The position numbers and the translations under genes are program-made. Below are positions 15,587-16,075 of a stretch of DNA of 61,829 nucleotides, piece by piece. A model generated the notes under the pieces. It did not search any database. It saw only the letters and a list, made by a program, of their open reading frames with translations, and was not told where the DNA came from. How positions within the stretch are numbered: position 1 is the first letter of the stretch; each line of letters opens with the position of its first letter. Source of the DNA: a virus; IMG/VR virus record IMGVR_UViG_3300042934_000981, positions 1 through 61,829 of that record, one strand, 5' to 3'.

Positions 15587-15645
15587 CGGATATGGGAGTG
15601 CGACCGGGAGGATCTACCAGAAAGATAACCGATCGCGTGCGACCC
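15587..15645 (-). ncRNA. Y-RNA-like unit 4 (short, without tRNA-like module)
   Basis: Begins with the Ro-binding-like motif GGGTCG...GGTTATC (22 bases, 15645-15624) and ends with the shared 3' element CCCATATCC near 15597-15587. The 27 bases between do not contain a T-arm or D-arm, unlike units 1-3. It may be a minimal Y RNA or a decayed copy. Confidence 0.5.
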
Positions 15646-15660
15646 GCACGTAGGGTTCAA

Positions 15661-15797
15661 CGGATGTGGGGTGAGGCCGGGAAGGGCTTGCGCCCCAGGG
15701 TCTTAGGCCACTAGACGACGTCGTCACCGAAGTGACGCCGGCGGGATTCGAACCCGCGTACCCGCTATGCGAGAGATAACCGACGCTCGATCGACCC
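15661..15797 (-). ncRNA. Y-RNA-like unit 3 with tRNA-like module
   Basis: In order on the leftward strand: Ro-binding-like motif (15797-15775, GGGTCGATCG...GGTTATC); a tRNA 3'-half-like segment with a canonical T-arm GCGGGTTCGAATCCCGC (15757-15741); a 6-bp acceptor-like hairpin capped by a TTCG tetraloop (15737-15722); a D-arm-like stem (15716-15700, GTCTAGTGGCCTAAGAC); and the 3' element CACCCCACATCC (15674-15661). The tRNA halves are in reversed order compared with a true tRNA, as in bacterial Y RNAs that mimic tRNA. Confidence 0.7.
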
Positions 15798-15813
15798 GTT
15801 GAAAGGGGTTCCT

Positions 15814-15934
15814 GGATATGGGGTGACACCGGGATTAAGTGCTCTGCCGCTGAGCTACCGGGGACATCAGTCCTCGGGCGGGATTCGAACCCGCGACCCC
15901 TCCATTAACAGTGGTAACCGATGTCGGTCGACCC
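15814..15934 (-). ncRNA. Y-RNA-like unit 2 with tRNA-like module
   Basis: Ro-binding-like motif GGGTCGACCG...GGTTACC (15934-15913); an anticodon-loop-like CTGTTAATGG; a perfect T-arm GCGGGTTCGAATCCCGC (15894-15878); an 8-bp acceptor-like stem with one mismatch closed by a TGAT loop (15877-15858); a D-arm GCTCAGCGGCAGAGC (15855-15841); and the 3' element CACCCCATATCC (about 15825-15814). No free acceptor end is present, so it cannot be a normal tRNA gene. Best preserved of the four units. Confidence 0.75.
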
Positions 15935-15949
15935 AGGAAGTGTGTGCAG

Positions 15950-16075
15950 CGGATGTGGTGAGGAACCGGATGCGCTCCGTGAGGAGCGTCCCCAAGCCAA
16001 GGGGAAACGGTGGAGGCTTGCGCCCACTCACCGACGGGAGTCGAACCTGCGATAACCGATTCTCGCGACCCGCTG
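15950..16075 (-). ncRNA. Y-RNA-like unit 1 with tRNA-like module
   Basis: First unit after the promoter. Ro-binding-like motif GGGTCGCGAGAATCGGTTATC (16071-16051, 21 bases), T-arm-like GCAGGTTCGACTCCCGTC (16050-16033, stem with one mismatch), a long hairpin capped by a GCAA tetraloop in place of the acceptor stem (16033-16008), a D-arm-like CCCC-x7-GGGG stem (16004-15990), a small hairpin (15987-15974) and the 3' element ACCACATCCG (about 15960-15950). Confidence 0.7.

Follow-up and report, generated by a model that had tools for sequence, protein, structure and literature searches.

A tandem array of four predicted Y RNAs beside a viral Ro60 gene and anticodon-arm-like hairpins in Ro60-linked Y RNA units

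Introduction

The virus record IMGVR_UViG_3300042934_000981, examined here over its full length of 61,829 bases (the window), encodes a Ro60/Rsr protein and, beside its gene, a repetitive region with four copies of a Ro-like motif. In known Ro60 complexes it is the stem that attaches the Y RNA to the outer face of the ring (PMC4726728). The locus raises two questions: whether the repeats give rise to several Y RNAs cut from one precursor or to one long RNA that loads several Ro60 rings, and what the tRNA-like parts of the repeats might present to other proteins. Conserved stems, covariance models and comparison with other Ro60 loci point with good confidence to a polycistronic minus-strand array of four Y RNAs 5′ of Ro60, predicted to be cut into separate Ro60-bound RNAs, and a wider sample of units reveals a recurrent hairpin that follows the sequence rules of tRNA anticodon loops.

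Results

The Ro60 gene lies on the minus strand at 13872..15446 and encodes a 524-amino-acid protein with the combination of TROVE and vWA domains that identifies Ro60/Rsr. The open reading frame (ORF) matches Pfam families PF05731 (TROVE, 2.5e-30) and PF25045 (vWA_Ro60, 1.6e-33) and PHROG 850 (RNA-binding protein, 3.1e-55), a profile of phage Ro60 proteins matches the PDB structures 2nvo (Rsr, 3.7e-169) and 1yvp (Ro60, 1e-161), and the DxSxS metal-site residues of Ro60 are invariant. The array sits ~137 nucleotides (nt) 5′ of the Ro60 start codon on the same strand, next to Ro60 as expected of bacterial Y RNAs, a placement that allows array and Ro60 to form a single transcription unit.

The array spans 15583–16076, close to the range of 15587–16075 proposed in a sequence-only reading of this region. 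That reading named no strand and placed four Ro-like motifs at 15624, 15775, 15913 and 16051, spaced 151, 138 and 138 nt apart; positions and spacing are both correct and correspond to the low-coordinate ends of a minus-strand motif, GGGTCG(N)CGGTTAYC, at 16071–16051, 15934–15913, 15797–15775 and 15645–15624. A CAYATCC element does end the units as it described, on the minus strand only (CACATCC, CATATCC, CACATCC, CATATCC), so the reading had in effect been made on that strand. Its linkers of 15–16 bases hold as distances, with 16, 16 and 16 nt from CAYATCC to the next GGGTCG, but not as linkers: each 16-nt stretch runs from the 3′ strand of one outer stem across a short spacer into the 5′ strand of the following one, and by the model-derived borders neighbouring units are separated by 6 nt at each of the three junctions.

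All four units, designated A–D in minus-strand order, have the long stem joining 5′ and 3′ ends and the conserved Ro site of bacterial Y RNAs. The outer stems differ in sequence and keep their pairing (GCAGCGG/CCGCTGC in A, TTCCTGG/CCAGGAA in B, TTCAACGG/CCGTTGAA in C and GTGCGG/CCGCGC in D), and each unit closes on its own stem. Minimum free energy (MFE) folds place an internal loop inside the outer stem, its two strands being CG(A) and CACNNCA, followed by an inner stem ending in CGG/CCGG and then UUA. Conserved features of the units are an outer stem with a GGGY/RYCC end and an inner stem around the Ro-site strand GGYCG..CGGUUAYC.

Within this frame the units carry circularly permuted tRNA-like modules ordered as T arm, loop-capped acceptor and D arm, which are clear in B and C, variant in A and missing in D. 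Unit B (15809..15939, 131 nt; identified by model R1, described below, and Rfam YrlA) contains an anticodon-arm mimic at 15914–15902, CCA-CUGUUAA-UGG, that reads GUU (Asn-like), followed by a T arm (15894–15878), an acceptor-like stem closed by a 4-nt loop (15877–15858) and a D arm (15855–15841). Unit C (15656..15803, 148 nt; model R1 and fold) has a T arm at 15757–15741, an acceptor-like stem with a TTCG loop at 15737–15722, a D arm at 15716–15700 and a GCAA-capped hairpin at 15696–15683. The T loop of B and C is canonical (TTCGAAT), as are the D arms (GCTCAGCGGCAGAGC; GTCTAGTGGCCTAAGAC). Unit A (15946..16076, 131 nt; covariance models and an MFE fold with z −3.1) has a T-arm-like element at 16049–16035, a D-arm-like element at 16004–15990 and a capped hairpin at 15988–15973. 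Unit D (15583..15650; models R2 and R1 and fold) is short at 66–68 nt, with neither T arm nor D arm and with a hairpin at 15626–15612, AUCU-UUCUGGU-AGAU, that has a 7-nt loop.

Covariance models built with the window excluded recover the same four units. Model R1 derives from 20 units with a tRNA-like module and model R2 from 19 short units, all from relatives, that is, phage and viral loci fetched through Ro60 by alignment queries; a single-protein scan of viral contigs gave nothing. Across the 61.8-kilobase window R1 matches exactly A–D on the minus strand (B, 6.9e-20 and 100 bits; C, 3.9e-12 and 64 bits; D, 1.1e-5; A, 8.6e-5) and nothing else below E 0.001, with borders that agree with those derived from the stems, and R2 matches D at 1.3e-8. 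Orientation relative to Ro60 is equally consistent elsewhere: 128 of 134 strict-motif matches in relatives lie upstream of Ro60 on its strand, 0 upstream on the other strand and 6 downstream, and every model match is on the strand of Ro60 (184/184 viral, 106/106 bacterial). Outer stems of at least 8 base pairs close 82 of 132 units, compared to 13.8% of controls given another unit's 5′ flank, and of the 25 consensus pairs, 18 show double compensatory changes. These extend to the T, acceptor and D arms, which, unlike the outer stem, had played no part in picking units. Comparison of the array with phage and plasmid DNA returned tRNA-like patches only, and these led to Xanthomonas phage Olaya and prophiGD43A-5.

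Comparison of array copy number across relatives revealed that tandem arrays are common, contrary to the proposal that single Y RNAs are usual. Among loci with model matches, at least two units are present at 47 of 48 viral loci (at least four at 16), a set partly picked for having units, and at 34 of 38 bacterial loci, including Nocardia, Nonomuraea, Sphaerisporangium, Actinomyces, Bradyrhizobium and others. Of 90 loci picked by Ro60, 30 already show at least two units with the strict motif, which leaves many units undetected. Salmonella yrlBA is a known tandem Y RNA pair (PMC7790460). The occurrence of Y RNAs close to Ro60, in mycobacteriophages as well as in bacteria, was likewise known (Chen et al. 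2014, cited in PMC12282133). Arrays of this kind are also carried by two laboratory phages, Microbacterium phage FuzzBuster (host M. foliorum) and Mycobacterium phage Sparky (host M. smegmatis mc2 155). Regular spacing likewise fails as a functional feature in the comparison with related phages that the sequence-only reading had itself set: tandem neighbours there are 74–192 nt apart, with gaps of 3–35 nt, and spacing varies because units with and without the tRNA-like module alternate. Unit architecture, unlike spacing, is conserved among related loci. Judged from these sequences, the equal spacing of A–D is a local coincidence and the tandem layout is not.

We examined the hairpin directly following the Ro motif in 313 non-redundant units from 126 loci, with redundancy removed at 80% identity. 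After GGUUA, 7-nt loops occur in 171 of 313 units versus 53 expected, loops of 3–6 and 8 nt stay near background (50–72 versus 53), and 9-nt loops rise to 117, probably representing 7-nt-loop hairpins counted one pair shorter. Requiring U33 and R37 and excluding T-loops retains 104 of 313 units, against 6.9 on average and never more than 13 across 200 shuffles uncorrected for unit relatedness. The signal is specific in position, with 104 anticodon-type hairpins right after GGUUA, 3–15 at other shifts and 7 on the reverse complement. As in real tRNAs, G37 occurs with G36 in 26 of 34 loops versus 1 of 70 otherwise (Fisher 2e-16; 4e-10 on 66 distinct loops), and A34 is rare. The loops thus obey anticodon-loop rules. 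A unit as a whole does not faithfully reproduce any single tRNA species: mimicry of a single isotype by the whole module was considered and rejected as only weakly above chance, and we make no claim that each unit copies one particular tRNA. By raw count, triplets are unevenly represented among the ~104 loops, with many Ser, Arg, Asn, Thr and Gln, no Tyr and few Leu, Gly and Glu relative to tRNAs of the same loci.

Several Y units in relatives are annotated as tRNAs: in prophiGD43A-5 (gp51, L362:2980-3111) as tRNA-Thr, in SM23 (L002:3638-3704) as tRNA-Asn and in Forza (L009:5471-5538) as tRNA-Gln. The first of these, labelled 'tRNA-Thr(tgt)', scores 108.6 bits as a Y unit; the anticodon-like arm is close enough to a real one for annotators to take such units for tRNAs. 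At 15 places in the fetched loci an ARAGORN call overlaps or adjoins a Y unit, and some relatives' Y units, as in Forza, sit inside tRNA clusters. One further locus (L028:2385-2523) has a Y-type stem that seemingly encloses a tRNA-like module in normal arm order, D before T, unlike other units. In Xanthomonas phage Olaya (L361:2442-3043), three Y units lie just 5′ of QTZ82393.1, annotated 'hypothetical protein', which is a divergent, unannotated Ro60 (TROVE, 2.9e-9); sister Xanthomonas phages matched in the DNA similarity comparison. The SM23 Ro60 (L002:3941-5515) is annotated as two coding sequences with a gap and is one piece by tblastn.

The virus record itself encodes the structural set of a tailed phage, comprising terminase, portal, major head protein, major tail protein, head-tail adaptor and tape measure. 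Within 12885–17300, the Ro60–Y cassette is flanked by the genes for the major tail protein and the head-tail adaptor, is antisense to both and resembles an inserted accessory cassette; in relatives it is sited elsewhere, near primase/exonuclease genes, tRNA clusters or integrase. Between the array and the Ro60 start codon, a 14-base-pair minus-strand hairpin at 15473..15505 (fold of 15560–15447, z −3.7) is followed by no T-run; it is possibly an attenuator, terminator or processing site and could separate expression of array and Ro60. Other proteins of the record include a collagen-repeat protein (32253–33083), a Prim-Pol primase/polymerase (44464–46614) and a DprA-like protein (54327–55262).

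Discussion

We conclude that the region is probably a polycistronic array of four Y RNAs destined for separate Ro60-bound particles. A common precursor is likely because the units are head-to-tail and ~6 nt apart and no terminator was found between them, and separate ribonucleoproteins (RNPs) are favoured because each unit has its own closed stem. The core of the sequence-only reading, a tandem Y RNA array that may come from one precursor, stands, shorn of its premises that single Y RNAs are usual and that spacing is regular. Cleavage within the short spacers would release the individual Y RNAs from one transcript, each to be bound through its stem by one Ro60 ring. The outward module would then show a tRNA-like or anticodon-like surface, different between units, to tRNA-handling proteins, with nucleases such as PNPase, modification enzymes and host anticodon nucleases as candidate partners. 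We tentatively suggest, as a possibility below even chances, that Ro60-bound Y arrays in phages and some bacteria are panels of differing anticodon-arm mimics that engage anticodon-loop enzymes (nucleases or modification enzymes) during infection or stress, the short units being anticodon stem-loops held by Ro60 and lacking the remainder of a tRNA.

Some observations pull the other way, both for the array and for the anticodon-like arm. A promoter scan of 15400–16300 detected no sigma-70 promoter-like site. Unit A is weak in both models (R1, 8.6e-5; R2, 0.012), and the Rfam YrlA model (RF02553) scores 39 bits on unit B (7.5e-7), below its gathering score of 69. The arm is also uneven within the window: unit A has no anticodon-type hairpin, the hairpin of unit C does not obey anticodon rules, and that of unit D possibly reads CUG if the register is right, the register being ambiguous. 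Across the wider sample, the naturalness of the triplets does not exceed that of position-shuffled controls (97 versus 94 of 104), and the best tRNA match of the module is the isotype of its own triplet in only 10 of 70 cases, a weak excess over a null mean of 4.5 and maximum of 12.

The anticodon-like arm could instead be a relic inherited from a circularly permuted tRNA ancestor, with no role of its own. This account is plausible, if short of probable: the whole module is tRNA-like and its isotype coherence is weak. Against it, arm stems vary by compensation with many compensatory pair types at each position, the loop retains U33, R37 and A38, and the arm is present in 25 short units without a T arm, unit D included, which argues that it is not merely a remnant of the whole module.

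The same retention in short units favours a functional alternative in which Ro60-bound units act as decoys or inhibitors of host anticodon nucleases such as VapC, PrrC and retron effectors, each unit with a different loop. The loop rules, G36–G37 coupling and compensatory stems agree with such a role, and triplets differ between units in 28 of 28 viral and bacterial arrays with at least two such loops and in the window. A decoy role would fit phage biology, in which tRNAs encoded by phages counteract anticodon nucleases (PMC10264068, PMC11555353). It would also agree with a previous proposal for Salmonella, that YrlA competitively inhibits an anticodon nuclease (PMC7790460). We nevertheless regard it as doubtful. 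Bacterial chromosomal Ro60 loci carry the same loops (28/104), arguing against a phage-only counter-defence and making a general function in controlling the quality of tRNA or RNA at least as likely, half of the T-arm units lack the arm, and the triplets are no more natural than their composition predicts.

An uncut long RNA that loads several Ro60 rings side by side, the second option offered by the sequence-only reading, is improbable. The ~6 nt between units, the lack of a detected terminator in those gaps and a complete Ro site in each unit would suit it, but every unit has a covarying stem of its own that closes it, gaps in relatives run from 3–35 nt up to hundreds of nt and so impose no fixed geometry, and known Y RNAs are separate RNAs of 90–150 nt (PMC8394870). 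An unrecognised ordinary or degenerate tRNA gene cluster, or an RNA from the plus strand, is highly improbable despite the canonical T- and D-arm sequences, the ARAGORN tRNA calls on some relatives' units and the good fold of the plus strand, since ARAGORN finds 0 tRNAs in the window, the arms are permuted and the acceptor is closed by a 4-nt loop where a tRNA has an open end with CCA and normal arm order, and canonical T and D loops and model matches occur on the minus strand only.

An array of four Y RNAs processed from one precursor remains our preferred reading, and as such the locus adds one more case to a known type. The anticodon-arm mimic is, provisionally, undescribed. A literature search on Ro60 and the anticodon, which did not extend to Chen 2014, Sim & Wolin 2018 and Wang 2018, turned up no account of Y RNAs that mimic anticodons, a weak indication of novelty. 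Anticodon-arm copies that differ from unit to unit, if real, would give Ro60 and Y RNA in bacteria and phages a concrete and testable class of targets, proteins that read anticodon loops, and would link Ro60 RNPs with defences that cleave tRNA and with the RNA-repair operons that are often their genomic neighbours. In practical terms, Rfam misses these RNAs and some are annotated as tRNAs, and an unannotated Ro60 gene can be recognised from its Y array, as in phage Olaya.

Comparison with known systems

The Ro-site strand of vertebrate Y RNAs, GGUCCGA...GGGUUAUC, is similar to that of the units described here, and both have a stem with an internal loop. Vertebrate Y RNAs differ in that they are not known to have a tRNA-like module or anticodon arm and are single genes transcribed by RNA polymerase III, and their Rfam models gave no match in the window at gathering score or E<=5. 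Clusters of phage tRNAs active against anticodon nucleases (PMC10264068, PMC11555353) share with the array the presence of anticodon loops in a phage-encoded series. Y units, unlike those tRNAs, are permuted, have a capped acceptor and a Ro60 stem, and are not aminoacylatable in this form.

Closer parallels are found among Ro60-linked Y RNAs. Mycobacteriophage Ro60/Y RNA (Chen et al. 2014, as represented by its citation in PMC12282133) likewise pairs a Ro-like protein with Y RNAs in actinobacteriophages. YrlA of Salmonella yrlBA, Deinococcus and Mycobacterium resembles the array in its position beside Ro60, its Ro-binding stem, the occurrence of more than one Y RNA in tandem and the order of the tRNA-like module as T arm, capped acceptor and D arm. 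Many phage and bacterial units here add an anticodon arm, in contrast to the Rfam consensus, where the stem to the Ro module takes that place. Rfam gave no YrlA match on A, C or D, and 0 of 17 relative loci reach the YrlA gathering score; we predict from shared architecture that the array works like YrlA, yet do not class it as RF02553. YrlA has been described as resembling D, T and acceptor arms, and its tRNA-like module tethers PNPase, is modified by tRNA enzymes and carries dihydrouridine and pseudouridine (PMC8394870).
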